Part shown: one piece after another, positions 13,875-61,314 of the stretch
How positions within the stretch are numbered: position 1 is the first letter of the stretch
How the letters are laid out: every line of letters begins with the position of its first letter
DNA from: Pythium myriotylum
Taxonomy: Eukaryota > Oomycota > Peronosporomycetes > Pythiales > Pythiaceae
DNA length: 64,000 nt
Reading direction: 5' to 3'
Assembly (NCBI GenBank): GCA_023091665.1
Contig: JALJCQ010000030.1
Coordinates: forward strand, 3,040,501 to 3,104,500
Translations under genes and position numbers: made by a program
The notes under the pieces: model-generated
Told to the model about the DNA's origin: nothing
What the model saw: only the letters and a program-made list of their open reading frames with translations
Databases searched by the model: none

Positions 13875-13951
13875 CTTAGCCCCGCTCAAGTTCACACCCA
13901 CCCACCCAACCAACCAACCACCCAACCGCCACTTCCTCTCTCCTACCAACC

Positions 13952-14761: not shown

Positions 14762-15027
14762 GCATGAGCATAGGCATAGACGTAGGCGTAGACGTAGGCC
14801 TGCTATATTTCTTATACTATTTGAGATTGGATTTATTTTTTTCGTACGGTAGATCTGTTGAACTGTTTGCTGGTGAAGTAGTCTGCAGAAGTTGTCTCGA
14901 CCATGCGGAAGGAGCCATGGATTTGCGGCTGGTGCGGTGGCGGGTCGTGGCGCGTCCGTCTCGCCGATGTTTTGCGGTGGTCCGTTTCCGGTGTTCTGTT
15001 TGCACCCTTCGTGATGTGGGAGCTTTC

Positions 15028-15056
15028 CATGGGTCACGGCGAACCCAGTCGATGGC
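15028..15056 (+). repeat. short inverted repeat, left arm
   Basis: CATGGGTCACGGCGAACCC followed by AGTCGATGGC. It pairs with 15171-15199 with one mismatch over 29 bp, separated by 114 bp. Confidence 0.75.
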
Positions 15057-15170
15057 ATCTACTGAAGTTACTCACTCACGAACGGTGAAGTCCAGCCGAC
15101 AGGTGACGCTGGTGTTGATGACTACATACGACGAGGCCATCGACATTCGCACCCTAACCAGCCAGGCCAG

Positions 15171-15199
15171 GCCATCGACCGGGTTCGCCGTGACCCATG
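15171..15199 (-). repeat. short inverted repeat, right arm
   Basis: Reverse complement of 15028-15056 apart from one base. Its outer end coincides with the boundary of the large HTP6/HTP7 inverted repeat, at GATATCGAGCTT. Confidence 0.75.
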
Positions 15200-15560
15200 A
15201 TATCGAGCTTGACGAAAGAATCCAGATATGGGAACTTCTTCCCTCAAAGGGAAAGAGGAAGTGGATTCTATCCACCGAAGAGACCCTCCGCTCTAAGGGA
15301 TGGCGAAGGATGATGCGTCCCGGCGTTCTTGTTGACTAAACCATTCGCTTCGTCGATGTTGATCGAGAATTGATGGTGCGAGCAGTATCTGGAAGAGGAA
15401 GCACTGATCCTCAGGGTATCATAAAGATAAGCGTTGTAGACAACGTCACCAGCAAACAGTTCAACAGATCTACCGTACGAAAAAAATAAATCCAATCTCA
15501 AATAGTATAAGAAATATAGCAGGCCTACGTCTACGCCTACGTCTATGCCTATGCTCATGC

Positions 15561-16370
15561 CTACGCCGCGTTCGCGATCGCCTGGAGCTTGGCCGACGTC
15601 GCACCCAGCTTCGCCTGCGTCACCTGCGTCGGAGACTTCTTGAAACCGATCGGGAACATCTCGTACTCCAGGAAAGACGTCAGCGTGTACTTGTCCACCG
15701 TCTCGGTCGTGCCGTTGCCGAAGCCGTTCAGGATCAGCGACGACTCGCCGAACGCCAAGAACACCTGCGTCGCGCCGAACGTCACGTTCGGGTTGTTGGC
15801 CTTGGACGCCGCCAGGCGCTCCTTGCGGAGCTGACCGAACGTCTGCACCGAGAACTGACCGTTGCTGTCGGCGCGCTTGAGCACGTCCTTGAGAAGAGCG
15901 TCGTCGATCTTCGACGTGTCCTTCTCAAAGTACACGTCCGCGTGCACGAGCGACGCGTCGTGCTCCACGAGGTTGTGCGTGCCCAGCAAGTTGAGGTCGA
16001 ACGGCGTCGCCGGGAACACGCTCACCAGCAGCGTGGCCAACGCCAGATCCAGGTTGTACTTGTCCATGACCACGTCACGCAGCTGCGTCGTGGTGATGTT
16101 CTTGCCGTCACGAGGGAGGTATCCGTGGTTGGCGAGGGTGTTGATGGCCGGGCACGGCGAGCGACGGAACCAGGCGTCCTTGTTGGCCGGGTCGCCCGAC
16201 GTGAGCGAGGCCGGCGGCTTGAAGTAGAGACCTTGCGTCATGGCCTCGGCCGTCGCGACCAGGCCATGCGCGATGTCGCTGGCGACGGCGTTCTCGGCCG
16301 CGGTCGAGGCGGAGGCGGAGGCGAAGATGGCGGCAGTGGCGGTGGTGAAGAGGGCGGTGATGGAGACCAT
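15561..16370 (-). CDS. short secreted heme-thiolate peroxidase (HTP6)
   Basis: A 269-residue HTP that differs from HTP5/HTP7 only in the segment after the signal peptide (ASTAAEN instead of ASAAAQN). The PCP ligand Cys73, EHD at 136-138 and Glu209 are intact. It lies tail-to-tail with HTP5 and head-to-head with HTP7, in the left arm of a large inverted repeat. Near-identity over both coding sequence and flanks implies recent duplication or continuing gene conversion. The start is the MVS ATG, with a C/A-rich leader and an initiator 78 bp upstream. Confidence 0.92.
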   Translation of the reverse strand: MVSITALFTTATAAIFASASASTAAENAVASDIAHGLVATAEAMTQGLYFKPPASLTSGDPANKDAWFRRSPCPAINTLANHGYLPRDGKNITTTQLRDVVMDKYNLDLALATLLVSVFPATPFDLNLLGTHNLVEHDASLVHADVYFEKDTSKIDDALLKDVLKRADSNGQFSVQTFGQLRKERLAASKANNPNVTFGATQVFLAFGESSLILNGFGNGTTETVDKYTLTSFLEYEMFPIGFKKSPTQVTQAKLGATSAKLQAIANAA

Positions 16371-16447
16371 GGTTGGTAGGAGAGAGGAAGTGGTGGTTGG
16401 GTGGTTGGTTGGTTGGGTGGGTGGGTGTGAACTTGAGCGGGGCTAAG

Positions 16448-16464
16448 CAAGTTGTGGAATGAGA
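16448..16464 (-). promoter_or_regulatory. initiator element of HTP6
   Basis: On the minus strand this reads TCTCATTCCACAACTTG. A 9-10 bp tandem repeat (CTCAGTCTCT-type) directly precedes it, as in HTP7 but not HTP5. Confidence 0.6.
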
Positions 16465-16945
16465 CTGAGAGACTGAGAGACTGAGGTCGTGACTCGACTC
16501 GACCGGGTCAGATTGGACAGGCCAGGACTTGACCCCGGACGGAACCTACGGGACCCACTCGACAGGACTGGAGTAGACCCGTTCGTACAACTCGACCTCC
16601 TGTAGTCGTGTCGCGCCGCCGGCTATGTTGCCTTCCTTTCGATTTCCTCCGGTGTTGGTGGCGTTCCGTGGGTTCAGATGGCTTTGCATCCCAGTGCACT
16701 GTCTGTCATTCTCCCGCTCTATGGAACAGGATGGACTACACAGTACGAATAGTCTGCGCTCACGGGTTCCGCTTGCAAGACTGTCCACATGCGTGAACAA
16801 ATACACATCGACAACTGTCGGTTCGTGGCCACTGGAAGCAAGCGTGCAAACCTGTCAGATGGATTCCAGCACTTTTCTCGTACCCAGCGCTAGGTCGGAC
16901 CCACGGAAATTGGTCGCTGCTGCAGTGTTTGTTGTTGGCAGTCTC

Positions 16946-17529
16946 CATGATTCACGTCGTGCGTTTCTTCCCACACGAGATTGACAGCACACAGATTGGC
17001 AAGGATTCCCGATCGCTCTGTCGGTAATACCGACTCGGTATGTTAGACCAGAGGCACAGAAACGAGTTGCACTGTTCGAATTTGACTGCAGACAGGTCCA
17101 CTCTCATCTTCCTCTCACCGATGGTTTCGTCACCCCAGCCCTGCGAGACCGGTCGCACGACTCCCCGGCAGATGCACCTGGCCTGGAGTGGTTGGTTCTC
17201 GACACGGACGGTCAGTACTGGCTTCACAAGCAGTCAGATCGAGCTCCACCACTATCTGTACGGTCTACACGAATCCGAATGCGGCTGCGGATGGCCTCGT
17301 CGCGTAGATTTGTCGTCATCACTACTATCCGTGCTAATCGTGGTCTGGACTCGAGCTCTGCAATCACTTGAATCGCTTGCCCTCGTCAGTCTGGCGTGGC
17401 ACGTATTCATATTCCGAAGAGATCGGTAACACACGACTACTCTCTGGCAGAGACTGCCGGTGTGCTATCGTAGTGTGCTACATGTATCGATCTCATGTGA
17501 CACGACATGCGCATGCGACTAGCGTGAAG
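16946..17529. other. spacer of the HTP6/HTP7 inverted repeat
   Basis: About 580 bp of unique sequence between the two repeat arms. It has one open frame of 129 codons on the plus strand (17040-17429), of odd composition and without known features. I do not call a gene here. Confidence 0.5.
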
Positions 17530-17932
17530 AGACTACGAACAACGAACACTGCAGCCAGCGAGTCGTGGGGTGGGTCCAACCTTGCGCTGGGTGCGAGAAA
17601 AGTGCTGGAATCCATCTGACAGGGTTGTACGCTTCCGGTGTCCACGAGCCGCCAGTACGAGTGTGTTTATTTCTGTTTCTGCGTGTGGATAGTCGTGCGA
17701 GCGGGGCCGGTGAGTACGGACTGGATGGACACCGTACCGTACATACTGTTCCGCGGAAGCGGGAATAGACAGACAAACAGACAGCGCCTTGGGATACGAA
17801 GCCATCGAAACCCACGGAGAGCCACGAGTCTCAAAGGGAATCGAAACTAACGTCCCGTCCGGGGTTAAGTCCTGGCCTGTCCAATCTGACCCGGTCGAGT
17901 CGAGCCACGACCTCAGTCTCTCAGTCTCTCAG

Positions 17933-17949
17933 TCTCATTCCACAACTTG
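17933..17949 (+). promoter_or_regulatory. initiator element of HTP7
   Basis: TCTCATTCCACAACTTG, 77 bp before the ATG, preceded by CTCAGTCTCTCAGTCTCTCA. Confidence 0.6.
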
Positions 17950-18026
17950 CTTAGCCCCGCTCAAGTTCACACCCACCCACCCAACCAACCAACCACCCAA
18001 CCGCCACTTCCTCTCTCCTACCAACC

Positions 18027-18836
18027 ATGGTCTCCATCACCGCCCTCTTCACCACCGCCACTGCCGCCATCTTCGCCTCCGCTTCCGCCTCGGCCGCGGC
18101 CCAGAACGCCGTCGCCAGCGACATCGCGCATGGCCTGGTCGCGACGGCCGAGGCCATGACGCAAGGTCTCTACTTCAAGCCGCCGGCCTCGCTCACGTCG
18201 GGCGACCCGGCCAACAAGGACGCCTGGTTCCGTCGCTCGCCGTGCCCGGCCATCAACACCCTCGCCAACCACGGATACCTCCCTCGTGACGGCAAGAACA
18301 TCACCACGACGCAGCTGCGTGACGTGGTCATGGACAAGTACAACCTGGATCTGGCGTTGGCCACGCTGCTGGTGAGCGTGTTCCCGGCGACGCCGTTCGA
18401 CCTCAACTTGCTGGGCACGCACAACCTCGTGGAGCACGACGCGTCGCTCGTGCACGCGGACGTGTACTTTGAGAAGGACACGTCGAAGATCGACGACGCT
18501 CTTCTCAAGGACGTGCTCAAGCGCGCCGACAGCAACGGTCAGTTCTCGGTGCAGACGTTCGGTCAGCTCCGCAAGGAGCGCCTGGCGGCGTCCAAGGCCA
18601 ACAACCCGAACGTGACGTTCGGCGCGACGCAGGTGTTCTTGGCGTTCGGCGAGTCGTCGCTGATCCTGAACGGCTTCGGCAACGGCACGACCGAGACGGT
18701 GGACAAGTACACGCTGACGTCTTTCCTGGAGTACGAGATGTTCCCGATCGGTTTCAAGAAGTCTCCGACGCAGGTGACGCAGGCGAAGCTGGGTGCGACG
18801 TCGGCCAAGCTCCAGGCGATCGCGAACGCGGCGTAG
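18027..18836 (+). CDS. short secreted heme-thiolate peroxidase (HTP7), protein identical to HTP5
   Basis: A 269-residue HTP whose translation equals that of HTP5: signal peptide 1-22, linker, Cys73 (PCP), EHD 136-138, Glu209, no C-x6-C pair. It is divergent from HTP6 across a 1.65 kb promoter interval that is itself palindromic. Unlike HTP5, its distal promoter is of the HTP4/HTP6 type, so HTP5 and HTP7 would make the same protein under different control. Start at the MVS ATG. Confidence 0.92.
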   Translation: MVSITALFTTATAAIFASASASAAAQNAVASDIAHGLVATAEAMTQGLYFKPPASLTSGDPANKDAWFRRSPCPAINTLANHGYLPRDGKNITTTQLRDVVMDKYNLDLALATLLVSVFPATPFDLNLLGTHNLVEHDASLVHADVYFEKDTSKIDDALLKDVLKRADSNGQFSVQTFGQLRKERLAASKANNPNVTFGATQVFLAFGESSLILNGFGNGTTETVDKYTLTSFLEYEMFPIGFKKSPTQVTQAKLGATSAKLQAIANAA

Positions 18837-19186
18837 GCATGAGCATAGGCATAGACGTAGGCGTAGACGTAGGCCTGCTATATTTCTTATACTATTTGAG
18901 ATTGGATTTATTTTTTTCGTACGGTAGATCTGTTGAACTGTTTGCTGGTGACGTTGTCTACAACGCTTATCTTTATGATACCCTGAGGATCAGTGCTTCC
19001 TCTTCCAGATACTGCTCGCACCATCAATTCTTGATCAACATCGACGAAGCGAATGGTTTAGTCAACAAGAACGCCGGGACGCATCATCCTTCGCCATCCC
19101 TTAGAGCGGAGGGTCTCTTCGGTGGATAGAATCCACTTCCTCTTTCCCTTTGAGGGAAGAAGTTCCCATATCTGGATTCTCTCGTA

Positions 19187-19280
19187 AAGCTCGATATCCA
19201 GCTGAGAGGGTGATCCCACTAACTCTTGTGGGTGGTTTCGGTTTGAATGGCTTTTCCAATGGTCTCCATATCATCCTTTC
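19187..19280 (+). repeat. dispersed ~95 bp repeat, copy 1
   Basis: Shares GATATCCAGCTGA-like, GATCCCAC and GGTTTGAATGGC blocks, in the same order and spacing, with 20364-20455. Confidence 0.65.
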
Positions 19281-44124: not shown

Positions 44125-44903
44125 GAGCCTCAATCCCAAGTCTTCCGCCGTTGGATATCATTCGAAACGAACGGAGGGATTGGCGGCTGGGTACACTTTT
44201 GGGATCTTCCAAGGTGCAGATGGCTGATAGCATAAAGCCTCTTCCGTCTTCTTGTCGAAAATGAACCCAAGCCCCCGCGAACAAGATAGGCGACAGCATT
44301 GAGAAAAATGGGGGTTTGAATTGATTAGGAGGGATGAACTGCTTCCAGTTTATCGGATACCACGACTGAAGAGTCACGACCAATGGGCAACATGCCTGAC
44401 CGGAACTTGGATCGTCTTTGAACAAAGAAGAATTTCTGTGTGAGACCATCTCACAGAATCTCGTTAAATCCCGACGGAGGCTCAGCCGTGTTTGTTGGAT
44501 GTGACTCACCTGAACCACAGGCCAGTCCGCATGGAAAGCTCGTCGTCTCTTGTCGTGAAGGTCCCACCGTCGTCCATTCAAGTGTGGGTGCACCAGAAAC
44601 TTTTCGCTGGAAATCATATTGTGCATAAACAGTCCGGACTTGGCGTCCTTTCAACTGACTGATCAGATTCCTCATCCCTCCTTCCAATTGTCGAAGAGGT
44701 TGAAGAAACAGAGACGTCGCCCATCCGATCGCAAGTGGCGTGGGTTCATTCTGGTATCGCCAACAGCGACGAATCGAGGAACCGACAGCCTCTCGACCGA
44801 ACCCAATGGCAACCGTTATACTCGTCTCTTCGACGACTTGGCATTTAGAGATTTCCAGCATTGCACGATTTCACCCTCGCCCTTCACAGCCCACACGCGA
44901 GCC
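44125..44903. other. spacer and divergent promoters of ABCG-A and ABCG-B
   Basis: Unique sequence between the head-to-head ABCG copies. Open frames are continuous with the genes but lack domain signals. AGCATTGCACGATTTCACC near 44858-44876 could be an initiator for gene B. Confidence 0.5.
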
Positions 44904-46729
44904 ATGGTGAAGGCAGCCGAGCAAGACCGTCAACAGCTCTCGTCGCCGTCGACGGAGACTTCGTACCAAGTCGCACTCGACGTCTCCAAGGCTACAATTA
45001 TGGATCAGTCCCAGACGCCATACACACTGAGCTGGTCCAACCTCAGCTACGCCGTCACCACACGAGCAGGCCACAAAGACATCCTACGAAACGTCTCCGG
45101 ACGATGCGCGCCCGGACAACTCACCGCCGTCATGGGACCCTCCGGATCAGGCAAGACCACGCTGCTCGACATCCTCGCCGACCGCGTCAGCACCGGCACC
45201 ATCTCCGGCACCATCGAGCTCAACGGCGTCAAGAGAGACGTCAAGACCTTCCGCGCCGTCGCCAGCTACGTCGCGCAAGAAGACTCGCTGCTCGGCTCCT
45301 TCTCGGTCGTCGAGACGCTGCGCATGGCCGCCAAGCTCAGTCTGCCCAGCTCCGTCACGACCGCCATGATCGACGACCGTGTCGACCTCGTCATCTCCGA
45401 GATGGGACTGGTCAGCTGTCGCGACACGATCGTCGGCGACATCTTCCGCAAGGGTTTGTCGGGCGGCCAGCGCCGTCGCTCTCCATCGCGATCGAGCTGC
45501 TCTCGAACCCGTCCGTCTTGCTGCTGGACGAGCCGACGTCGGGCCTGGACTCGTCGGCCACGTACAACGTGATCAAGCTGTTGTCGGAGCTGAGTCGCGC
45601 GAACAACAAGACGGTGATCTTCACGATCCACCAGCCGTCGTCGTTGGTGTACGATATGTTTTCGAATATCTTGATCCTGAGCTCGGGACAGACGGCGTAC
45701 TGTGGTCCTCGCGCCGGAGCAATCCCTCACTTTGCTGCTGTTGGATTCGAATGTCCCAAATATTCCAACCCCGCCGAATACTTCATCGAGTTAGTCAACG
45801 ACGACTTTGAAGGCCACGCGGATGTGGGACACCTTGTCCACCAATATTCAGAGAGCAGCATTGCTAAGCAGCTTACTCAAGCTATCGACCAGGACCGATC
45901 GACACTGGGAGGACATGCCGGCGTTGCTGAGTCCGTTGAGCCATCGGCGCTGCGCCAGTTCTGGGTTATCCTGTACCGGAACTCGCTCAACAACATCCGC
46001 AATCCAGGTATCTACTGGGTCCGTGTGGCGATGTACATCATGCTGTCGTTTATGATTGGCACGATGTACTTGTCCACCAATGACCGAATCACCGAAGACG
46101 ACATGGTACCACTGCTCTTTTACGTGCAGGCCTTTCTGGTCTTCATGTCGGTCGCCGTGCTACCGTTCTTCATTGAGCAGCGCTCCGTGTTTCTCCGCGA
46201 GCGTGCCAACTCGGGTCTCAACGTCTTCAGCTACGCGATCGCCAACTTCATCGCGGCAATTCCCGGCATCTTCTTCATCGCTCTCGTCTCCTCACTACTG
46301 GTAGTACTACTGGCTGGTCTCAACAACTTTGGTTGGTTCTTGCTGAACCTCTTCCTCTCGCTCGTTGTCGCCGAGTCGCTTATGCACGTCATCGGCTCGG
46401 CTGCCCGACACTACATCATCGGCATCGCGCTCGGCGCCGGCATCTACGGCATGTTTATGCTTTGTGAAGGCTACATGGTGCCCAAGCACTCAATTCCGGA
46501 CTACTGGATCTGGGGCTACTACCTCGCGTTCCACACGTACTCGTTCGAGTCATTCCTGTACGAGCAGCTTGCATACGAAAACACACCAGAGGCTGCAGCG
46601 ATCCTGCAGCGCATGGGCATGGAGAACGTGGACGTGGCGCGCAACATGGGCGTGCTCGCGGCTTACGCGATCGTTCTGGAGCTGATCTTCACCTTCATTC
46701 TCTACAAGTTCCACACCGGCCGGCGGTAG
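44904..46729 (+). pseudogene. half-size ABCG transporter B, same frameshift as A
   Basis: Head-to-head duplicate of ABCG-A. Walker A (GPSGSGKTT), signature and Walker B (LLLDEPTSGLDS) are followed by a complete six-helix domain ending KFHTGRR. The N-terminal ~45 residues, starting MVKAAEQDRQQ, are unique. After CAGCGCCGTCGC (ending 45479) one C is missing relative to the intact gene at 51764-53617, so the downstream frame is shifted; it then continues open to the stop at 46729. The membrane domain is identical to that of A except near the C-terminus. Nothing else in the sequence shows decay, so the lesion is recent or the copies are being homogenised. Confidence 0.8.
45023..46664 (+). repeat. 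ABCG-A/B inverted repeat, right arm
   Basis: Partner of 42380-44015; about 1.0 kb of unlike sequence separates the arms. Confidence 0.8.
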
Positions 46730-47779
46730 ACGTATGCACGGTTGCGCGACTGTTGCTCAACATTTGAGAACGTCTTCCAGTCTTGTTCTCCAGTGGGTGC
46801 GTCAGGGAGTGAGTTCAGCGACCTTCTTGACAGCGCAGTTCTGATTTGGATACATTCGTTTATAGAGGTCACGAGTTAATACAAATACGATATCGTTCGG
46901 AGAGGTACGATGATATAGGATATGTTCTTGGAGGTTCAAGTGCAATCCGCCGGTGGGTTACTGGAGGGTCGCAGAAACAGTTTAACACAGAACTTCCAGC
47001 TGCCATGCTGGTGAAATGAAGCCGACGTCGTCTCGATGAGCTGGAAATCGCTGGACTGCGATGCTGCTTCCGTGGTCCATTCGCCACGAGCGATGGGCTG
47101 AGAAGGCTCACAGTTCGGTACTCAACATGTTTCAGTCCGGTGCTGATATGTAGTCTGTCCACTGATTATGTAGACTTCCAAGCCATCATTCAAAGCACTC
47201 TATTCACTACAGTATTAGATACGCTCAGCTCTTATAACGGAAGAAGTCCGAACGACTGGGTGGTTGAGTCCATCCGGCGAGGACTCCATGTGCGGACTGT
47301 CGCTGCGACACAATACGATGGGGACGATCAGCGTCAGTGGTAGAGGGCGCAGCCGTGCCGTTCCGCACGCATCAGTGCCACGCATTGCCGAGGGTCGATC
47401 ATCGCCGCCGTGAGCAACTCCACAGATGGATCCGCGGCTGTAGCGAGGGATCTTGTTAAAAGCTGTTGGACCAGTCACCATTCTGGCGTTCCAAGTTCGA
47501 ATTCTCAGATACCGTTACCGGAGCGTTCAGAAGACCACTCTTCCGTTCGGAATGGGTACGCAACCTTCAACTCTTAGCTCTTGAACCTCAGCTGACAGCG
47601 ATCCTCGCGATCTCCGGCCTGCTGACGCCCGGCGATGATGCTGACCCTTTGTCGCTGATAAGGAAAGCATGAGGATTTCCGGCCCGGGGCATTGGGACGC
47701 CACTCCATCCCCGCACCACTCAGTCCCAGTTCTCTATTTGCTCTCAACCACTCAAGCAACTGCCCTCGCCGACTTCTTC
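46730..47779. other. intergenic region ABCG-B to HTP16
   Basis: No gene recognised. An initiator-like word (CAGTTCTCTATTTGCTC, near 47726-47742) lies about 40 bp before HTP16 and is weaker than those of the short HTPs. Confidence 0.5.
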
Positions 47780-49399
47780 ATGGTCTCCTTCTCTCGTGCT
47801 CTGCTCGCTATCGGGGCTCTCGCTCCTGGAGCCATCGTGGCTGACCCCCATTGCTCAACTCCGGACAACCTCGCAGTCGGCGAGTATTATCGCCCGACGG
47901 GAGATGGAGTCACCGGGGTCTTCAACACCACGCGGCCGGTCTACCGCCGTTCGCCGTGCCCAGCGATCAACACGCTCGCAAACCATGGATACCTGCCGCG
48001 CGACGGTCTCAACATCTCCAGGAGCATGTTTGTGGCGGCCATCGTGACCCACTTCAACCTCGATCGCGCGCTCACGACCTTCATCGCGTCGCTAGTGCCC
48101 TCCGACATCTTCTCGCTCGATCAGCTGAGTAACCACAACCACGGCGAGCACGACATGTCCATGGTACACCCAGATCTCTTCTTTGGCAAGGACCCGGCGT
48201 GGGTAGATCCCGCGATGGTGGACGACATGTTTGCTCGCGTCGGCGCCTCCAATACCATGGACACGATTTACTTTGCCAAGCTGAAGAAGCAACGCATGGA
48301 TGCTTGTTATGCCCATAACCCGACGTGCTCAGTCGGGCCCCCGATGCTCGAAAACATTTCGCTGAGCCAGCCAGGCCTCCTCATGCGCGGTATGGGCGGC
48401 CGCAACGAGGAGTGGGTTTCTGTCGAGAATGCTTGGTCGTTCCTCGTGGACGAGAAGTTCCCGCCGGGTTTCGCGAAAGCATCCCGAGCGATCACCGACC
48501 ACGACCTGGAAGTCTCACGAGACCAAATCCGGCGGCTATACGTTTCCGCAGGCGACTGGCTCGTCCACGGATTTGCCGGTTCCAGTGAGCAGATCTTCAG
48601 CAACGCAGACGTGTCGCTTTGCCTCACTGTCAAGGACAAGTCCCTGGACGCTCGTGCCCCGCTCCATCTTACCAAGTGCGAGGCCGAAAAGGCGAACCAG
48701 CGGTTCCATCTCGACGACGATCAAAGATTCATCGTGGAACACTCGAAAATGTGCGTAGCGGTCTCAGACACCCTCGCGCGAGGGCCTGCGCAAATTATCC
48801 AGGCGCCTTGTGGTAACACGACGAGCTTCAAGTGGGTCTACGACGCTTCAGGTCGGCTTAAATCGCTTCAGGAGCCCACCAAGTGCCTCGCCCCGCGTGG
48901 GAAAGCAGGTGACGAGGGCCTCATGCTCACTGACTGCTCGCAACTGCAAACTCAGTCGTTCTTCACCCAGTACAAGCCATTCAACGCCACCGTGAGCCGA
49001 ATCATGAGCACAACCACACAATCACTTTGCCTGGGAGTCAAAAGTGCGTCCACCGGTGAGCTTGCTGATATCGAGGCTGCTGCGTGTAGTACGTCTGCGC
49101 CGGAGCAGAAGCTGACATTAAACTCCAATGAGCAGTTGGTGTTCCAGCACAGCGGAAAGTGTGTTGCCGCAGATGCCGCGGGGACCCAGATCGTTCAGAC
49201 CACTTGCAGCCAGAATGACTCGCAGCGCTGGTTCTACGATTCACTCGGGCGACTGCGGTCGCGAGGAGCTCCTCAAAAGTGCATCGCATTAACATCCACT
49301 TCTGTCGGAAGTGGGATCCAACTTGCTCCGTGCAGCGACTCGCCAACGCAGAACTGGTTCGCAGTTGACATGGTCGGCGGCGCAGGAACTCCTGCATAA
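47780..49399 (+). CDS. heme-thiolate peroxidase fused to ricin-type beta-trefoil lectin domains (HTP16)
   Basis: A 539-residue secreted protein. Signal peptide about 1-21; HTP domain about 30-260 with Cys60 ligand (RRSPCPAINTLANHG) and EHD (then MSMVHPD). At the position of the acid-base Glu the sequence is LSQPGLLMRGMGG, so Glu is replaced by Gln. About residues 270-535 form two consecutive ricin-type beta-trefoil modules. They are recognised by repeated WxYDxxGRL (KWVYDASGRL, RWFYDSLGRL) with paired Cys (SLCLGV, GKCVAA, KCIAL), as in carbohydrate-binding CBM13/Ricin_B_lectin domains. A lectin-tethered, possibly non-peroxygenase heme protein is inferred. It is the one-unit counterpart of HTP17 and sits between ABCG-B and an ABCG remnant. 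Start at the MVS signal peptide. Confidence 0.85.
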   Translation: MVSFSRALLAIGALAPGAIVADPHCSTPDNLAVGEYYRPTGDGVTGVFNTTRPVYRRSPCPAINTLANHGYLPRDGLNISRSMFVAAIVTHFNLDRALTTFIASLVPSDIFSLDQLSNHNHGEHDMSMVHPDLFFGKDPAWVDPAMVDDMFARVGASNTMDTIYFAKLKKQRMDACYAHNPTCSVGPPMLENISLSQPGLLMRGMGGRNEEWVSVENAWSFLVDEKFPPGFAKASRAITDHDLEVSRDQIRRLYVSAGDWLVHGFAGSSEQIFSNADVSLCLTVKDKSLDARAPLHLTKCEAEKANQRFHLDDDQRFIVEHSKMCVAVSDTLARGPAQIIQAPCGNTTSFKWVYDASGRLKSLQEPTKCLAPRGKAGDEGLMLTDCSQLQTQSFFTQYKPFNATVSRIMSTTTQSLCLGVKSASTGELADIEAAACSTSAPEQKLTLNSNEQLVFQHSGKCVAADAAGTQIVQTTCSQNDSQRWFYDSLGRLRSRGAPQKCIALTSTSVGSGIQLAPCSDSPTQNWFAVDMVGGAGTPA

Positions 49400-51593: not shown

Positions 51594-51883
51594 TGCTTCC
51601 TTGGGTTTGGATGGGTGGCGCACGTCCGTACCAAAACACGGTCGTAGTGGTTCTGCACATTGTGGAAGTGATATTTTCACAATAGAGTAGTAATAATAGT
51701 AGTAGTAGTATCAGTAGTAGTAGTAGTAGCAGAGGCAGTAATAGTAATATGAGCTTAGACTTTCTAGCGGCGGCCGGTGTGGAACTTGTAGAGGATGAAC
51801 GTGAAAATGAGCTGCAGGACGATCGCGTAGCCCGCGAGCACGCCCATGTTGCGCGCCACGTCCACGTTCTCCATGCCCATGCG
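49669..51883 (-). repeat. 2.2 kb segmental duplication, copy 2
   Basis: Copy of 40213-42427 (see there). The junction at 49668/49669 joins it to the ABCG remnant; at the other end it grades into ABCG-C, whose coding sequence diverges from ABCG-A from 51884 onwards. Confidence 0.88.
51687..51748. repeat. duplicate (TAG)n/(TAA)n microsatellite
   Basis: Same tract as 42231-42292, with no length change. Confidence 0.8.
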
Positions 51884-53617
51884 TTGCAGGATCTCAGCCG
51901 CACGAGGCGTGTCCTCGTACGCGAGCTGCTTGTACAGGAACGACTCGAACGAGTACGTGTGGAACGCGAGGTAGTACGCCCAAATCCAGTAGTCCGGAAT
52001 TGATGCACGTGGAACCATGAAACCCTCGCAGAGCATGAACATGCCGAAGATACCCGCACCGAGAGCGATCCCAATGATGTAGTGGGGCGCGGCGGCACCG
52101 ATGACGTGCATAAGCGACTCGGCGACAACGAGCGAGAGGAAGAGGTTCAGCAAGAACCAACCAAAGTTGTTGAGACCAGCCAGTAGTACCACCAGCAGCG
52201 AGGAGAGTAGCGCAATGAGAAAAATACCAGGAATCGCGGCGATGAAGTTGGCGATCGCGTAGCTGAAGACGTTGAGACGCGAGTTGACGCGTTCGCGGAG
52301 AAATACCGCCCGCTGCTCGATGAAGAACGGTAGCACGGCGACCGACATGAAGACCAGAAAGGCCTGCACGTAAAAGAGCAGCGGCACCATGTCTTCATCG
52401 CTGATGCGGTCGTTTGTGGAAAGGTACATCGTGCCGACCATGAACGAAAGCATGATGTACATGAACACACGGACCCAGTAGATACCTGGATTGCGAATGT
52501 TGTTGAGAGAGTTTCGGTAGAGGATGACCCAGAACTGGCGGAGCGCTGAAGGTACCGGGTTTGCAGCCATCTCTTCTCGGGATCCGACAGATGCATCCCG
52601 ATCTTCTTCGATAAGCAGGCTCAGCTGTTTGGCCGCAGAGCTGTGCACGTAAGCATCGACTAGACCTGGCACGTCGGCGTGTCCTTCAAAGTCGTCATTG
52701 ACAAGATCGATGAAATACTCGGCGGGGTTCGAGTACATTGGACACGCAAAGCCCACGCTAGCAAAATGCGAGATCGCGAGATCTCGCGGACCACAGTACG
52801 CCGTCTGCCCCGAACTCAGGATCAAGATATTCGAAAACATATCGTACACCAACGACGACGGCTGGTGGATCGTGAAGATCACCGTCTTGTTGTTCGCGCG
52901 ACTCAGCTCCGACAACAGCTTGATCACGTTGTAAGTGGCCGACGAGTCCAGGACCGACGTCGGCTCGTCCAGCAGCAAGACGGACGGGTTCGAGAGCAGC
53001 TCGATCGCGATGGAGAGGCGACGGCGCTGGCCGCCCGACAAACCCTTGCGGAAGATGTCGCCGACGATCGTGTCGCGACAGCTGACCAGTCCCATCTCGG
53101 AGATGACGAGGTCGACACGGTCGTCGATCATGGCGGTCGTGACGGAGCTGGGCAGACTGAGCTTGGCGGCCATGCGCAGCGTCTCGACGACCGAGAAGGA
53201 GCCGAGCAGCGAGTCTTCTTGCGCGACGTAGCTGGCGACGGCGCGGAAGGTCTTGACGTCTCTCTTGACGCCGTTGAGCTCGATGGTGCCGGAGATGGTG
53301 CCGGTGCTGACGCGGTCGGCGAGGATGTCGAGCAGCGTGGTCTTGCCTGATCCGGAGGGTCCCATGACGGCGGTGAGTTGTCCGGGCGCGCATCGTCCGG
53401 AGACGTTTCGTAGGATGTCTTTGTGGCCGGCTCGTGTGGTGACTGCGTAGCTGAGGTTGGACCAGCTGAGCGAGCACGGCGTGGTCGACGGCGGGCGCTC
53501 GACGTCGAGCACGGCGACCGCGGGCCGCGTGAGCTCGTCGACGTCGGCCGCGTACTGGAACGTGCTGTCGGTCGAGGGCGACGACATGATGTACATGCTC
53601 GAGGGCTTGCGCTGCAT
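51764..53617 (-). CDS. half-size ABCG transporter C, intact
   Basis: A 617-residue ABCG half-transporter. Nucleotide-binding domain about residues 50-300: Walker A GPSGSGKTT, signature LSGGQRRRLSIAIELL, Walker B LLLDEPTS, with the following D-loop SVLD where A and B have SGLD. A connector and six-helix ABC2 domain follow (about 340-615), with the usual long extracellular loop before the last helix and the end KFHTGRR. The probable role is plasma-membrane export of lipids or toxic compounds as a dimer. The binding domain is almost identical to genes A and B, the connector (DLAISHFASVGF to REEMAANPVP) is strongly diverged, and the 3' end again equals A: a conversion mosaic. The ATG at 53617 is the first in frame; upstream codons are non-ATG. 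Confidence 0.88.
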   Translation of the reverse strand: MQRKPSSMYIMSSPSTDSTFQYAADVDELTRPAVAVLDVERPPSTTPCSLSWSNLSYAVTTRAGHKDILRNVSGRCAPGQLTAVMGPSGSGKTTLLDILADRVSTGTISGTIELNGVKRDVKTFRAVASYVAQEDSLLGSFSVVETLRMAAKLSLPSSVTTAMIDDRVDLVISEMGLVSCRDTIVGDIFRKGLSGGQRRRLSIAIELLSNPSVLLLDEPTSVLDSSATYNVIKLLSELSRANNKTVIFTIHQPSSLVYDMFSNILILSSGQTAYCGPRDLAISHFASVGFACPMYSNPAEYFIDLVNDDFEGHADVPGLVDAYVHSSAAKQLSLLIEEDRDASVGSREEMAANPVPSALRQFWVILYRNSLNNIRNPGIYWVRVFMYIMLSFMVGTMYLSTNDRISDEDMVPLLFYVQAFLVFMSVAVLPFFIEQRAVFLRERVNSRLNVFSYAIANFIAAIPGIFLIALLSSLLVVLLAGLNNFGWFLLNLFLSLVVAESLMHVIGAAAPHYIIGIALGAGIFGMFMLCEGFMVPRASIPDYWIWAYYLAFHTYSFESFLYKQLAYEDTPRAAEILQRMGMENVDVARNMGVLAGYAIVLQLIFTFILYKFHTGRR

Positions 53618-54154
53618 GGCGGCGAGCGAATCGGCGAGTGGCGAGAGGTTCCGCTGGTGGAGCAATTGGGCGGGGTGGGATGGGTACAGCAATGGAGGAG
53701 TGGAGATTGTGCGACTTGATGCCAGGCGAGGCGACGTCGTTTACGGAAGGGAGGTAACGTCAAACTAGGAGGAATGACCTGGTGGTCGGTATCGAGTGCG
53801 CCTGACCTGCTCGTCGCCTGGCTTTGTTCGGCGACCAGGTGTCAGGCACATGCCAAACCACGCTCATTATTGAGTTTATGTAATTTGATTACCTTTGTTA
53901 AATGATATAGTATATAACACCTTATACTCTCTCGAGGCTTCGATAAGCAATATAGTCTTGTAAATGCATACAACACACTACTTTTACTCGACAGGGGAGA
54001 TCTTTTGTGAAATTTTTCGAGTGCAACCCACCCATATGTGGCCCTGGATTCTCATGAAATGCAATGGGAAGGACGCGAGATATCTCAGGCGGACACAAGT
54101 GAGCGTCATTTCGTCAATTGCGTCCGTGCCATAATACTATAAGTGTACACAAGT
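53618..54154. other. intergenic region with an AT-rich block
   Basis: 53860-53980 is markedly AT-rich (TTATGTAATTTGATTACC, then ATGATATAGTATATAACACC) compared with the surroundings. No gene recognised. It lies upstream of ABCG-C and downstream of HTP17. Confidence 0.55.
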
Positions 54155-57100
54155 CTAAACTCCCAAAAACACATGCAGCACGAGCACGAGCAGCACGACA
54201 AACCCCATTGACGCGGCTTTGGCGGCCGACTCAGTGGGGCCGCCGCCTCCGATCGACGGGCTCTCGGAGCGAATCGTCAACTTGACGACTATCCATCGCT
54301 GGGCGTCGCTCGTCGAGCAAACGTCGAGCTTCACAGCTGCGCCCGCAGCCTTGTCGGCCGTTAGGCACAATCCCATCGCCGATGTCGGGTGCAGGCGACC
54401 CACCGAGTCGTAGGTCCACTGCTGTGTGGCTGCATCGGCAAGACAGTCAGTCTCTGACACGCTTGAGGTTTGGGCGTTTGTTGGACCTTTTGTTATGGCT
54501 GCGCATTTGTTTGAACCCTGAGCGATGAGGTGCTGCGAGTCATCCGATGAGAAGAGCTGCCTGGAGTTGGTCTCGCTGCATTGCTCGAGACTCAAAGTCG
54601 CGGAGTCGGTGACCCTGAGACAATGAGTGAGTTGGCCCTGCAGTTCCTTCGATTCGTCTGCGTCGGCCACGCTCACGAGCTGTTTGTTGTTGAGAGCGAG
54701 CCCGGAGAAGGAGGCAAAAAAGAGCTGCTCACTGCGATCATCGCACTTGTCTATGCCGCCACTGGCGCCCAGGGCGACGCCAAGACAGAACTTAAGGGCG
54801 TGTTGCGGGTGGAGGCGCCCGGAAGCGTCGTATGTCCATTTTTGGTGAGGCCAATTTGTGCAGTCGACGTGACCTAAAGTCGCATCACTACCGAGTTTCC
54901 CGTCGATCACGTCGAGACAACTTCCAGACGCTTCGACGATAAGTCGTTGCTGATCGTCGTATGTGAAAAGTTGAGACAATTTGGACGCATCGCACGTTTC
55001 TAGGGTGAGCGCTCCGTCCGCGAGGTTCAAGCACGAAACGCTGTCGTTCGTCAGAGCAAAGATCGGTTCTTTCTTTGGATGGAACGGCTTGCTTAGCCAC
55101 CACTCGCTTGTGCCACCAGGACCGCTGGTACTAGTAGATCCGGTTTCTACCATCGCCTGGACCTTGGTAGTGCTCACATGAACGTCGTTTGTCGTCACAG
55201 ACTGGGAAGGCTTGACATAGCCATCAGGAATTCGTTCCTCCACAAGTAATTGGCGTACAACATCCACATCCAACCCCTCCTGATTTCCGTCACTCATAAC
55301 ACGAAGCAGAAGCGCCGTCTTCAGATACTTCGATGACCTTGCGCTGGTGGTCATCGTTGGCGTCCCATATTCGCGTGCGTATGCATCTAGTCGTCGCCGA
55401 ATTGCAGCTGAGAAGTAAACAAGATCGAGCTTCATATCGCTACCGGTATAAGCAAACAAATCACTCACGAAGTCCGGGTCGATTGCAGCGGGATCGGGGC
55501 TGAAGAATGCATCACTATGGAGAAGTGATCCCTTGAAGTCGAACACAGTCGGGTCGCTGAACTGATCAAGATTCACGAAATCAGATGAGACGTTCATCAT
55601 CAATTGGTCTGCAAGTGATTCCTCGATATTGTAAGTCGCAATGACGGCACCTATGAGGTCAAAGCGGGAGACATTCCGCCCATCTCGACTGATAATGCCA
55701 TGATTTGCGAGAGCATTGAGTGCTGGACAGGGGGAGCGACTGTAGGTCGCCGAATTACCAGTGCGACCCGAAGATTCCTCTCGATTTGGCCGGTAGTATG
55801 TGTTCTGCGGGCGTTTGTTCGGGTCGTTGGCATCAGAGGCAAACCAGCGCTGAACGCCACGATCACTGCAATCAGCAACAAACAGCGAAGCAGCAGAGCT
55901 ATTGTTACTGAGCTCAAGACAAAGCTGCTTTCGACTGAGATGGAGACGGCCGAGCGAATCATACTGCCACGCTTGGTTGGGACTGTCCTTACAGGCTGAC
56001 TGGATAACCAGATTTGTGGCCGTTGCCGTGAGACAGAGGCTACTGTGTTGGAAAATCAATCGGTCCTTGTTATCAAGGGTAAGCTGCTGCTCAATTGAGA
56101 GCGGCTCGCAGGACTCAGCGATTACCGATGCTCCCTCACGGGCAGATCCACCTTCAATGCTCACGCACAGGTCGGAGAACTCGATGCTGTTGAGATGGCT
56201 CGCGTTCGGTTTGAATCCGTCATAAATCGAGTAAAACTGCTGGTCACGAGATGCGTCGCATTCTGTCAGCTTCATCGCTGGATCCTCAGCACTTGCAAAC
56301 ATACACAAATTAGCAGCATGAGCTGGCCGGAGGCGTCCAGACGAATCGTACGTCCAGATCTGGTTACTTGCTTCATCAGAACAGTCTTGTTGAGCAATCG
56401 GAGTTCCCGGTCGAGTTCCATAGTCAACAGCACCCAAGCAGAGCCCACTTTTCTCGACCACGATCCGTTGGTAGTCGTCCATAAGCAACCGCTGATTGTC
56501 CGCGTTTTCGCTGCAGCTTGTCACCATCAAAGATGCGTTCGCATCTGTCAAGCCTTGTTGTACGGCAAGACACAGGGTGTGATTCCCACCCTCGCTAATC
56601 ACTTGAGTGCCCTTGTTACTTCTCAGAAAACCATCAACAAGCCATTCACCAGATGACTTCAGAAGAGAGTAGATCTGTACACGCGTATCCTGGATGTTGG
56701 CTTGAGTAATTGGTGTTGGAGATTTCTGAAAGTCCTCCGGAAATCTCTCGTCTACCAAGAACGAACGCGCAGTATCCAAGTGAACGAGATTTTGGTTCTG
56801 CCCACCCATCCCACGCATGAGTAACCCAAGGCGACCAATCGCCACGCTCATGAGGTACTCGTTACTGAAGTCACATTGCGGGTTGCGCGACTGACAAATT
56901 GCGAGTCGGCGCGCCTGGGTGCGAGCGAAGAACAGCACATCCATTGTACCAGATGAACCTACGTGGCGCAAAAGTTCTGCGATAAGAGTGGGGTCGGTCA
57001 CTGCCGGGTCCTGGCCAAAGAATGCATCTGCATGAACAAGTGACATGTCATGCTCAGCAGCGTTGTGGACGCTAAGGTCGTCCAGGTCAAAAACTTCCTT

Positions 57101-58930
57101 CTTAGCTAGCTCGACAAGCACTTGAGCGTAAGTCGGGTCGATGTTGAAGTAGTCTACCACGGCTTTCTTCACCTGAGCGGCAGTCAGGTTTCGTCCACTT
57201 CTAGGCAAATATCCATGATTTGCGAGTGTATTGAGCGCTGGGCATGGAGAACGACTAAACGAGGCAGATGTCCCGGGTTTCCCAGACGATTCAAAGACGT
57301 TCGGGCGATAATATTGGTCAGCAGGTCGAATGTCGGCGTTCTTCGTATCAGTGATGAACCATTTTTGAGCGAGACCGTCAGCACAATCAGCGAGCGATAC
57401 TTTGACAGTGGAATTTCCTTTACTTGAGAGGAGTAGGCACTGAGAAGTATTTGTACTTGGGTGAAGTCGACTCAGCGAGTCGTAAAACCACTGCGAAGAG
57501 GTAGTGCTACACGGTTTTTGAACCACAAATCCGCTGTCAACGTCCATGCACTGTGTCTGGTCGTACGAGAAAACCAGCCGTTTAGACTCGTCGAGAGTCA
57601 GCTCTTGGCCCTCGTCGAGCGAGTCGCAAGCGTCAACGACGACAGGGCTCAAATCCAGAGCAGAGCTTGTAGCGGCACTAGTCTCTAGTCCAAGGCAGCT
57701 TTGGGGGGCATCGATGCTGGCAATACGGCTCACGCTTGGTTGAAAGTTAGCGTAGAACGAATAAAAGCGCTGCTGAGAACGTGCCGAACAGGAGGCTGTC
57801 ACGATCTTGCTCGGTGGCGCCGAAGATGGATCGATGTCGATACACAGATCTGGTGCATGCACTGGTCGTAGTCGTCCAGACGCGTCGTATCGCCACTGGT
57901 GCGTTAGTTTCAGCTCATCTGAACACACGGCTTCGACTATTTGCGCTCCCGTGGTGTTGCTCTCTGCTTCCACTTGAACACACCCTCCGTTTGCAATCGT
58001 AAATCGTTGGTTCGCGTCAAGAAGAAACTTCTGTGAGCTTAACCTCGCATCGCATTTCACTAGTACAAGTGTTTTGTTCTCACTCTGGAGGCACAGGGAC
58101 GGATACGCGTCGCTGATGAGCTGTTGATTTGTTGTACCGATCCCATCGCCGAGCCACTCGCCAGATGCCTTCAATAACGCAAACAATCGCACGCGAGTAG
58201 CTTGAATATCGTCCTGAGAAATCGGTTTGGTTGATTTTTTCCACGATGGTGATAGCTTTTCTTCTATGAGCAGCATTTTTGTGGCCTCAACGCCAACGGC
58301 CTCTTCATTTTTGCCACCCATGACGCGCATCAAGAGTCCCTGACGACCAAGCGTGACGCTCAGTAGGAACTCGTTGCTGAACTCGCACTGTGGATTTTTG
58401 TTCATGCAGTCGCGAAGTCGTCGCTGCTGGGTGCGCGCAAAAAACCACGGGTCTAGAACGCCAGACGCGCCAACGTGGCCAAACAGATCGGCGATCAAGT
58501 CGGGGTCTGCAACGCCGGGGTCTTCGCCAAAGAATGCGTCCTTGTGGACGAGCGACATGTCGTGTTCCACCATGTTGTGAACGCTGAGCTCGTCCAGGTT
58601 GAACACGGGCTTCTTGGCCAGCGCGACCAGAGTGTCGGCATACCGGTTGTCGACGTTGAAATGCTCCATCACCGCGTCTTTCAGCGCCTGGGCAGTGATG
58701 GCTTTCCCGTCGCGAGAGATGAAGCCGTGGTTGGCGAGAGCATTGATCGCTGGGCACGGCGAGCGGCTGTACGGCGCCATCGTGCCGACACGGCCGGAGC
58801 CTTGCGGCGGCAGCGGGCGGAAATACTCGCCATCTTTCAGCGCGACGGCGAGCGTCGCAGCAGCGAGAAGACACCAAAGAGAGAACGCTCGCTGAAGCGG
58901 GCGCGAGAGCCTTCGGACCCCAGACGCCAT
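54155..58930 (-). CDS. three-unit heme-thiolate peroxidase/ricin-type lectin protein with GPI-like tail (HTP17)
   Basis: A single open frame of 1591 residues. A signal peptide (about 1-30) precedes three HTP-lectin units: HTP domains near 31-245, 530-745 and 1040-1260, each followed by about 270 residues of beta-trefoil repeats (WRYDASGRL, WFYDSLSRL, WTYDSSGRL, WQYDSLGRL and others). All three HTP domains keep the heme-ligand PCP (Cys59, about 562 and 1065). The acid-base Glu is Arg in the first two (TLGRQGLLM, AIGRLGLLM) and Lys in the third. EHD is present in units 1 and 2 but lost in unit 3 (VFDFKGSLLHSD). The C-terminus has a Gly/Ser linker, SAAKAAS and 15 hydrophobic residues (FVVLLVLVLHVFLGV), typical of a GPI signal. 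Surface-anchored glycan binding with altered heme chemistry is inferred. The ATG at 58930 begins the signal peptide. Confidence 0.85.
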   Translation of the reverse strand: MASGVRRLSRPLQRAFSLWCLLAAATLAVALKDGEYFRPLPPQGSGRVGTMAPYSRSPCPAINALANHGFISRDGKAITAQALKDAVMEHFNVDNRYADTLVALAKKPVFNLDELSVHNMVEHDMSLVHKDAFFGEDPGVADPDLIADLFGHVGASGVLDPWFFARTQQRRLRDCMNKNPQCEFSNEFLLSVTLGRQGLLMRVMGGKNEEAVGVEATKMLLIEEKLSPSWKKSTKPISQDDIQATRVRLFALLKASGEWLGDGIGTTNQQLISDAYPSLCLQSENKTLVLVKCDARLSSQKFLLDANQRFTIANGGCVQVEAESNTTGAQIVEAVCSDELKLTHQWRYDASGRLRPVHAPDLCIDIDPSSAPPSKIVTASCSARSQQRFYSFYANFQPSVSRIASIDAPQSCLGLETSAATSSALDLSPVVVDACDSLDEGQELTLDESKRLVFSYDQTQCMDVDSGFVVQKPCSTTSSQWFYDSLSRLHPSTNTSQCLLLSSKGNSTVKVSLADCADGLAQKWFITDTKNADIRPADQYYRPNVFESSGKPGTSASFSRSPCPALNTLANHGYLPRSGRNLTAAQVKKAVVDYFNIDPTYAQVLVELAKKEVFDLDDLSVHNAAEHDMSLVHADAFFGQDPAVTDPTLIAELLRHVGSSGTMDVLFFARTQARRLAICQSRNPQCDFSNEYLMSVAIGRLGLLMRGMGGQNQNLVHLDTARSFLVDERFPEDFQKSPTPITQANIQDTRVQIYSLLKSSGEWLVDGFLRSNKGTQVISEGGNHTLCLAVQQGLTDANASLMVTSCSENADNQRLLMDDYQRIVVEKSGLCLGAVDYGTRPGTPIAQQDCSDEASNQIWTYDSSGRLRPAHAANLCMFASAEDPAMKLTECDASRDQQFYSIYDGFKPNASHLNSIEFSDLCVSIEGGSAREGASVIAESCEPLSIEQQLTLDNKDRLIFQHSSLCLTATATNLVIQSACKDSPNQAWQYDSLGRLHLSRKQLCLELSNNSSAASLFVADCSDRGVQRWFASDANDPNKRPQNTYYRPNREESSGRTGNSATYSRSPCPALNALANHGIISRDGRNVSRFDLIGAVIATYNIEESLADQLMMNVSSDFVNLDQFSDPTVFDFKGSLLHSDAFFSPDPAAIDPDFVSDLFAYTGSDMKLDLVYFSAAIRRRLDAYAREYGTPTMTTSARSSKYLKTALLLRVMSDGNQEGLDVDVVRQLLVEERIPDGYVKPSQSVTTNDVHVSTTKVQAMVETGSTSTSGPGGTSEWWLSKPFHPKKEPIFALTNDSVSCLNLADGALTLETCDASKLSQLFTYDDQQRLIVEASGSCLDVIDGKLGSDATLGHVDCTNWPHQKWTYDASGRLHPQHALKFCLGVALGASGGIDKCDDRSEQLFFASFSGLALNNKQLVSVADADESKELQGQLTHCLRVTDSATLSLEQCSETNSRQLFSSDDSQHLIAQGSNKCAAITKGPTNAQTSSVSETDCLADAATQQWTYDSVGRLHPTSAMGLCLTADKAAGAAVKLDVCSTSDAQRWIVVKLTIRSESPSIGGGGPTESAAKAASMGFVVLLVLVLHVFLGV

Positions 58931-59542: not shown

Positions 59543-61030
59543 TCATTCTTCATCGGGAAACTTGGCTGTCCGCTGCTCGAGAGAAGTTTGCGAGACACTT
59601 CCGGCGCCTTCGCTGATCCAGAAGAGCCGGTGCTTCTCCAGCAGTCGCCGCTCTAGCTCCTCGTCGTCGACATGCTCGTCGGCCTGGGCGTGCTCGTCGC
59701 GAGTCGCACTGATGCGTCCAGAGACACTGGAAGATCTTGACGAGTAGTGAGGGCTGGGACAAAAGCGAGGAATATTGTGGTGGTCCACTACTGGCACAGC
59801 GAGTCGAGGAGCGTTTGCTGCAGCTTGGCTAGCTTGCAGTAAGGCGCTCTGCGTTAGCCGCGGGGGGCTCGGCTCGCGAGATCCAATGGCGCTGATCGGC
59901 GACCCGTGGGCGACGCCTGCGTGGCCATGAGGGATACCCGCTGGGCAGTGGTGGTGCTGGCAATACAGTTCATCGTCAGTGTGCACTGGAACGCGAGGCT
60001 GTGTGGCTGCTGGGTACAAATAGCTCGTGCAACTGGTCGCGTACATCTCGGACGGCGAATTGCCAGCATGGTGAATGTCGTTGCTACTATACCGCGCGAA
60101 CGACAGTGCAGATGAGTGCGCCTGGGGTCTTGATCCTCTTCGTCCCTCTCGACCGAGATACTTGGTTCGTTCTTTCAGCAGGTGCATTTCCTTCAGCAGT
60201 TCGCACATATCCGATCGCAATTCGTCCATTTCGTCACGGAGGCGCTTGTTCTCAGCTCCTTGAGCATGACGATACTGCGTCATTTGTCGCGAAAGGAGAT
60301 TCTCAAGACTGCGACGGGACACCGCGTTCTCTTGCAGAAGATCCTGTTCCATTTTCGACATCTGCAGACGCACATGGTCCAGCTGATTCGAGAACCGCTC
60401 CATACGCTGGAAGAACTCGTTCTCGACCGACGCCCGGCGCGGCTCCATCTCCGTGAGCTCGTCTTTGCAGATCGCGAGTTCATCCCGAAGTTGATGGATC
60501 TCTTCCGCTGTCACCGAGTCAATATTCAACGTCGTGCGCTGGGTTGACGTGCTCCCGAGCGCATCCACTTTCGCGAGCATCGCGTCGATCTGGCGATTGT
60601 AGTCCTGTCGGAACGACTGCAGCTCGTGCGCGGTGAGGCTGCCAGCGCGCTGCAGCTGGTCGAGTTTCGCGAGCACATCGGACACGCGCTGCTTCGTGTC
60701 CTGGATCACAGCGAGGTCTTTGCGCGAGCACTCCTCGTACTTGGCCTGCAGCGCCTGCATCTCGCGCTCGACGCGCTCGAGCGAGCCGAGGCTCTCGGCC
60801 ACGCGCTCGACGGCCTCGTGGCGCGTCGCCATCTCGCTCTTGAGCGACGCGACCTCGTCGTTGAGCTGCTCGTTCTGCTGCGCCAGCGTCGCGAGCGCGG
60901 CGTGGACGTCGACGCTCGCGCACAGCCGCTTGTCGCGCGTCTCGCCAGTCGCGTCCGGCTCCTCCAGCGGCCGCTTGCGCGCGTGCTTGGGCGGCGGCGA
61001 GCTCATGGCGCCGTTGGTCGTCGTCGCCAT
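59543..61030 (-). CDS. coiled-coil protein with putative nuclear localisation signal
   Basis: This 495-residue protein is unlike the HTP genes and not recognised as a named family. Near the N-terminus PPPKHARKRPLEE looks like a nuclear localisation signal. Residues of about 40-300 are rich in Glu, Gln, Lys and Leu with heptad spacing (LAQQNEQLNDEVASLKSEM, ENKRLRDEMDELRSDMCELL), indicating a long, partly broken coiled coil. The remaining ~190 residues are Ser/Pro/His-rich and probably disordered, with a short charged helix near the end (DDEELERRLLEKHRLFW). The first ATG is at 61030; the frame upstream uses non-ATG codons. It is divergent from the next gene, with 284 bp between the starts, suggesting a shared promoter. 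A structural or nuclear scaffold role is only a guess. Confidence 0.7.
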   Translation of the reverse strand: MATTTNGAMSSPPPKHARKRPLEEPDATGETRDKRLCASVDVHAALATLAQQNEQLNDEVASLKSEMATRHEAVERVAESLGSLERVEREMQALQAKYEECSRKDLAVIQDTKQRVSDVLAKLDQLQRAGSLTAHELQSFRQDYNRQIDAMLAKVDALGSTSTQRTTLNIDSVTAEEIHQLRDELAICKDELTEMEPRRASVENEFFQRMERFSNQLDHVRLQMSKMEQDLLQENAVSRRSLENLLSRQMTQYRHAQGAENKRLRDEMDELRSDMCELLKEMHLLKERTKYLGREGRRGSRPQAHSSALSFARYSSNDIHHAGNSPSEMYATSCTSYLYPAATQPRVPVHTDDELYCQHHHCPAGIPHGHAGVAHGSPISAIGSREPSPPRLTQSALLQASQAAANAPRLAVPVVDHHNIPRFCPSPHYSSRSSSVSGRISATRDEHAQADEHVDDEELERRLLEKHRLFWISEGAGSVSQTSLEQRTAKFPDEE

Positions 61031-61314
61031 GTTTCTCGCTCCTGTCACGCTGTATCGTTTCCAGGAGTGTTGGGCGACACGGGCAGTACTCTACCGAGAA
61101 GAAACCGGTAGTGCTGGTCGGGGATCGGTGTACAGTAGTGTGGACCACCGTATTTTTTGGACGAATTGTACCCATGTTGGGCGAATTCTTTGAAGCTGCA
61201 TAGACGAATAGTAACAAATTGACAAGATGTATGTATTATGACAGGTTGATCCCGCCGTCTCTGTGGATCACAAAGAGCTCTCCAGCGTCAACGGCGCCTT
61301 GCTCGAGAGGAACG
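61031..61314. promoter_or_regulatory. putative bidirectional promoter
   Basis: 284 bp between two divergent ATGs. No clear initiator of the HTP type was found, so these genes may use a different core promoter. Confidence 0.4.

Follow-up and report, generated by a model that had tools for sequence, protein, structure and literature searches.

The stretch of DNA analysed here, termed the window, comprises 64,000 nucleotides of the oomycete Pythium myriotylum (contig JALJCQ010000030.1, positions 3,040,501 to 3,104,500), and positions 54155-58930 of its reverse strand form a single ATG-started frame of 1591 codons. Each of the other five frames of this interval is interrupted by 38-72 stops. The encoded protein consists of a heme-thiolate peroxidase (HTP) domain followed by two ricin-type beta-trefoils, an order that is repeated three times, and we refer to such fusions as HTP-lectins. 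We infer that the interval is transcribed as one mRNA; the oomycete promoter motifs Inr and FPR gave no match in the 400 bases upstream of the gene. The features of the gene are as follows:

54155..58930, reverse strand: three-unit HTP-lectin gene, one frame, 1591 amino acids (open reading frame, Pfam, relative)
58838..58930, reverse strand: signal-peptide-like N-terminus, residues 1-31 (hydrophobicity)
58145..58825, reverse strand: HTP domain 1 with ligand Cys59, EHD 122-124 and Arg196 at the distal Glu position (profile, alignment, fold model)
57347..58135, reverse strand: beta-trefoil pair of unit 1, residues 266-528, approximate ends (profile, cysteine pairs, fold model)
56633..57319, reverse strand: HTP domain 2 with Cys563, EHD 626-628 and Arg700 at the distal Glu position (profile, alignment)
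55832..56617, reverse strand: beta-trefoil pair of unit 2, residues 772-1033, approximate ends (profile, cysteine pairs)
55145..55807, reverse strand: HTP domain 3 with Cys1068 kept, EHD replaced by D1131, F1132 and K1133, and Lys1204 at the distal Glu position (profile, alignment, fold model)
54284..55105, reverse strand: beta-trefoil pair of unit 3, residues 1276-1549, approximate ends (profile, cysteine pairs, fold model)
54158..54253, reverse strand: C-terminal tail resembling a glycosylphosphatidylinositol (GPI) signal, residues 1560-1591 (hydrophobicity)

A Pfam profile search of the protein returned PF01328 in three stretches (413 bits, E 3.1e-124), which exceeds the curated cut-off of 26.9 bits and assigns the protein to the HTP superfamily by profile, as well as PF00652 in nine stretches (245.7 bits, E 1.2e-73) and PF14200 (E 6.7e-24). 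A PDB sequence search connected the HTP part with unspecific peroxygenases (UPOs) and the remainder with lectins, agglutinin B chains and CBM13-bearing xylanases. Structures predicted without heme for units 1 and 3 resemble short UPOs and R-type lectins: each contains a UPO-like domain with the HTP fold and two successive trefoil blocks, and the R-type/CBM13 assignment is given by the PF00652 profile together with the beta-trefoil fold of these two models. The original prediction, which was made from the letters of the sequence, had proposed an HTP fold fused to ricin-type modules and repeated three times within one 1591-residue frame. Both proposals are borne out, as the PF01328 stretches and the lectin matches alternate three times and the predicted structures agree with the profiles. 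One refinement applies to the lectin region behind each HTP domain: it is composed of two trefoils rather than one, with six cysteine pairs in every unit. Both ends of the protein are hydrophobic, no stretch between them is equally so, and neither unit 2 nor unit 3 is preceded by a hydrophobic leader. From this hydrophobicity, the N-terminus looks like a signal peptide and the C-terminus like a GPI-type tail, and the surface location that had been proposed is retained as probable display.

The full-length relative P0001 (Poli38472_011551) of Pythium oligandrum, a three-unit protein of 1568 amino acids, shares 53% identity with the window protein over 98% of the length. P0002 (Poli38472_011552), which carries the adjacent locus tag in the same species, has two units and 1375 amino acids, and both are uncharacterised public records with no function stated. 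By eye, both end in tails similar to that of the window protein. The public P0002 model joins the two-unit HTP-lectin to a coiled-coil protein; because a signal-like stretch lies inside P0002 (by eye), this comparison suggests that the join is a gene-model error. Relatives of both parts also lie in the window:

59543..61048, reverse strand: coiled-coil neighbour upstream of the gene, related to the part joined in P0002 (33% over 227 amino acids; sequence comparison)
47669..49399, forward strand: one-unit HTP-lectin paralogue, 576 amino acids, with no hydrophobic C-terminal tail and with Gln at the distal Glu position (profile, alignment)

The apparent false join in P0002 shows that gene models at this locus are fallible, and one could suppose that the 1591-codon frame is not one protein either, being an assembly accident or a set of unit-wise separate transcripts. 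We consider this very improbable, as P0001 has the identical three-unit order over 98% of the length, the junctions are conserved, the units pair by species in the tree described below, and units 2 and 3 lack leaders. Because P. oligandrum has the same order in P0001, the three-unit order is not an assembly accident; chance or accident as the origin of the frame was rejected on the evidence of the open reading frame itself, the stops in the other frames, P0001 and the tree.

A six-frame survey of the genome, which is blind to introns, listed 32 HTP domains, 19 of them in the window, and lectin-profile matches accompanied 4 of the 32, all in the two window genes. No further HTP-lectin was found among the three and two proteins returned by two further protein searches; these, like the search that gave P0001 and P0002, each scored only about 8000 candidates in a length range, so that absence elsewhere is not shown. 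P0006 and P0007 were weak protein-search hits (24-28%) and are not HTP-lectins.

In PMC9137552, the heme-ligand cysteine and a distal Glu are described as invariable in the modelled UPOs, this Glu being partnered with His in short and with Arg in long UPOs, and Mg is held by Glu85, Ser89 and the carbonyl of His86. The PCP cysteine that serves as heme ligand is kept in all nine HTP-lectin units that were compared (Cys59, Cys563 and Cys1068 in the window protein). The distal Glu, which all UPOs of that account retain, is itself exchanged in the HTP-lectins and occurs in none of the nine units, compared with 24 of the 27 distinct stand-alone HTP rows of the genome (one identical copy counted once) and, outside this genome, both domains of P0003. 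In both three-unit proteins, Arg takes its place in units 1 and 2; all three C-terminal units have Lys there. The alignment around the distal site is ungapped, reading LGEAALLMRSLGGQ-N in L042 and LGRQGLLMRVMGGK-N in unit 1. Because Arg196, Arg700 and Lys1204 stand where short UPOs have the distal Glu, the three-unit protein is not classed as a UPO.

The EHD stretch was intact in 26 of the 27 stand-alone rows, with DHD in the remaining one, and in all six HTP-lectin units that are not C-terminal, where EHD-x-S is also complete (6/6). Units 1 and 2 of the window protein thus carry the EHD-x-S of short UPOs with its distal His. All three C-terminal units are altered, to D-F-K in the window protein, V-Y-D in P0001 and R-H-D in P0002; unit 3 of the window protein retains the Ser but not the EHD-x-S of short UPOs.

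This pattern could reflect a pseudo-enzyme adhesin or scaffold, in which the HTP domains perform no peroxide chemistry and act as structural modules, perhaps still holding heme, within a surface protein. The distal Glu is lost in 9/9 units, where one of four residues (Arg, Lys, Trp or Gln) stands instead, EHD is altered in 3/3 C-terminal units, and HTP 3 shows 53% identity between the window protein and P0001, compared with 71-74% for HTP 1-2. We regard this explanation, the main rival, as possible if somewhat doubtful, since the PCP cysteine is retained in 9/9 units and EHD-x-S in 6/6 of the others, HTP 1-2 are the best conserved parts of the protein (the trefoils reach 35-50%), and the identical Arg occurs in both species. 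A peroxygenase role is doubtful as well, given the absence of the distal Glu throughout and of the EHD His in unit 3.

The original prediction proposed a multivalent glycan-binding heme protein; spelled out, this would be a glycan-targeted, multivalent UPO-like heme enzyme whose trefoils steer it to cell-wall or host glycans in the manner of carbohydrate-binding modules. The PF00652 matches and trefoil folds are in line with this, as are the Q-x-W motifs, which most units retain in subdomains 2, 5 and 6. The trefoil cysteines are conserved. CBM13 is also named in PMC7720654 among the families expanded or unique in mycoparasitic Pythium. The aspartate of C-x-D, two residues past the first subdomain cysteine, a sugar-site residue of R-type lectins, occurs three times among the 18 subdomains of the window protein, equally often among the 18 of P0001 (two occurrences are common to both), and in 0 of 6 subdomains of the single-unit paralogue. 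Across 14 further lectin frames of this genome, 110 of 163 subdomains have it (p 4e-5 against 3/18), and it is seen in 44 of 97 when two giant C25 arrays were omitted (p 0.03), and in 32 of 66 when near-identical copies were additionally counted once (p 0.02); the text pattern used for counting the control subdomains detects 17 of the 18 in the window protein itself. As controls served the frames matched by our own lectin profile in 18 fetched regions, which leaves out some of the genome's lectin places, for example C25:382212, C13:833905, C13:876021 and C12:3290322. Lectins often use only part of their subdomains, and non-classical sugar sites are possible. With C-x-D this scarce and the distal Glu missing, we nevertheless think the glycan-targeted enzyme unlikely; multivalent glycan binding is not borne out as stated, and many working sugar sites were not upheld as the leading explanation against the controls.

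The HTP tree (45 rows, 43 different) placed the nine HTP-lectin domains in one clade (100/99), within which the units paired by species (100/99, 100/99 and 100/96 for units 1, 2 and 3, respectively) and a further clade (100/97) united the three C-terminal units, one each from the window protein, P0001 and P0002. A duplication that produced units 1 and 2 after the branching of P0002 unit 1 received weak support (85/23). The unit-3 and unit-2 pairs recurred in a tree of the lectin parts (100/98 and 98/95, respectively), which did not place the unit-1 pair and the single unit. Because of the HTP-lectin clade and the unit-wise species pairing, the fusion probably arose once, and on these trees the tripling is older than the split of the window species and P. 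oligandrum.

Taken as a whole, the reading that we prefer, tentatively and at a little under an even chance, is that of a surface-anchored protein with heme-binding, peroxide-reactive units 1 and 2, a pseudo-enzymatic unit 3 and trefoils that are mostly stalk. The gene would yield one secreted, probably GPI-anchored surface protein; the one frame, the three units and the full-length relative are shown, and a single mRNA, processing and anchoring are presumed. Each unit places a short-UPO-type helical domain on a disulfide-locked beta-trefoil pair, as shown by the profiles and, for units 1 and 3, by the models. Units 1 and 2 retain the Cys ligand, the distal His and the EHD-x-S residues by which MroUPO holds Mg and heme, but have Arg in place of the peroxide-activating Glu of UPOs; they would bind heme, and a His-Arg pair would mediate their reaction with hydrogen peroxide. 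Their chemistry at the cell surface would be peroxidase-like or scavenging, not that of an efficient peroxygenase. Unit 3, in which the Cys is kept and His and Glu are gone, may be non-catalytic, binding heme or playing a structural part. The trefoils would chiefly form a stalk and spacer, with few classical sugar sites if any, and the fusion, having presumably occurred once, would have been multiplied within the gene before the two species separated.

A distal His-Arg pair is that of the classical plant and fungal heme peroxidases. The pocket might therefore be a rebuilt one, giving a surface peroxidase with a thiolate ligand and a distal His-Arg pair unseen in the compared UPOs, next to a Lys-bearing, His-free unit 3 that is possibly a six-coordinate heme sensor or sink; we hold this to be distinctly improbable.

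Several observations weigh against the preferred reading of a surface-anchored, peroxide-reactive protein. The loss of Glu could simply be a loss of function, and it is not confined to HTP-lectins, as L040 (two rows, Gln) and L046 (Ser) are the stand-alone exceptions and all four Phytophthora domains of P0004 and P0005 have Gln. Arg is not the replacement in P0002 unit 1 (Trp) or the single-unit paralogue (Gln), and the RHD of the P0002 C-terminal unit keeps His-Asp, which confines the loss of His to unit 3 of the two three-unit proteins. The lectin pair of L044 is equally poor in C-x-D (1/8 each), and the signal and GPI assignments come from hydrophobicity alone.

Elsewhere in the window, 15 stand-alone HTP frames, whose N-termini are signal-like, are clustered at 3503-34988. 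Within this cluster, 13854-19198 holds two identical HTP copies and a third that is nearly so; they alternate in orientation and are located in inverted repeats of 1034 and 1347 nucleotides that are 99% complementary; these copies are a recent duplication. ABC2-type transporter frames at 44861-46729 and 51764-53692 flank the one-unit paralogue. A second HTP-lectin neighbourhood was observed at L043-L044 (G000:C17), where four HTP frames adjoin two lectin frames without fusion. The genome also encodes giant ricin-type lectin frames (L047:1239-6347 and L048 in G000:C25, 1703 and 3458 amino acids, respectively) with C-x-D in every counted subdomain (21/21 and 45/45, part fetched). Large lectin frames occur as near-identical pairs at L049, L050 and L044, in opposite orientation at L049 and L050, and a lectin frame with a GH17 glucanase match lies at L051:68-2548. 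Two GH46 chitosanase frames are located at G000:C17:3255304-3261372; in the oomycete screen of PMC7720654, this family was detected in mycoparasitic Pythium alone. AA9 and GH71 gave no match in the genome, although this does not show their absence, as no control genome was positive. The data do not support a mycoparasite label.

PMC8772875, PMC9137552 and PMC7082571 treat UPOs as stand-alone fungal biocatalysts. The HTP-lectins, a small oomycete family, present this fold fused to lectin pairs, multiplied in one gene, probably surface-anchored, and with an 'invariable' UPO residue exchanged. The family offers a natural test of the residues needed for heme-thiolate peroxide chemistry and may provide Pythium-like oomycetes, P. 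oligandrum among them, with a surface oxidase. The architecture had been presented as unknown from described peroxygenases; we found no paper on an HTP-lectin fusion in the open-licence PMC literature, but the architecture itself is already in databases as the uncharacterised P. oligandrum records.

Among known systems, P0001 resembles the window protein in its three-unit architecture and in Arg, Arg and Lys at the distal Glu positions. P0002, from the adjacent locus tag, shares the Lys of the C-terminal unit but differs in having two units, the coiled-coil join of its model and the Trp of unit 1. The Phytophthora proteins P0004 and P0005 likewise have more than one HTP domain, two per public protein, which group between the two species (95/65 for the first and 100/98 for the second domains), but they list PF01328 only, without lectin, and keep EHD with Gln at the distal Glu position. 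A tree legend in PMC8772875 lists UPO genes of oomycetes together with fungi in a single clade (I.2), and PMC7082571 reports UPO-type sequences in a dozen oomycetes, probably through horizontal transfer. With the short UPOs MroUPO, CviUPO, HspUPO and artUPO, the window protein shares the PF01328 fold, the PCP cysteine and, in units 1-2, EHD-x-S, whereas it has Arg (units 1-2) or Lys (unit 3) for Glu, has lost EHD in unit 3, and is fused to trefoil pairs in three copies with a GPI-like tail. With R-type (CBM13) lectins, including the two-trefoil plant agglutinin B chains, it shares tandem trefoils, paired cysteines and Q-x-W, but it differs from them in its C-x-D count of 3/18 and in being joined to HTP domains.
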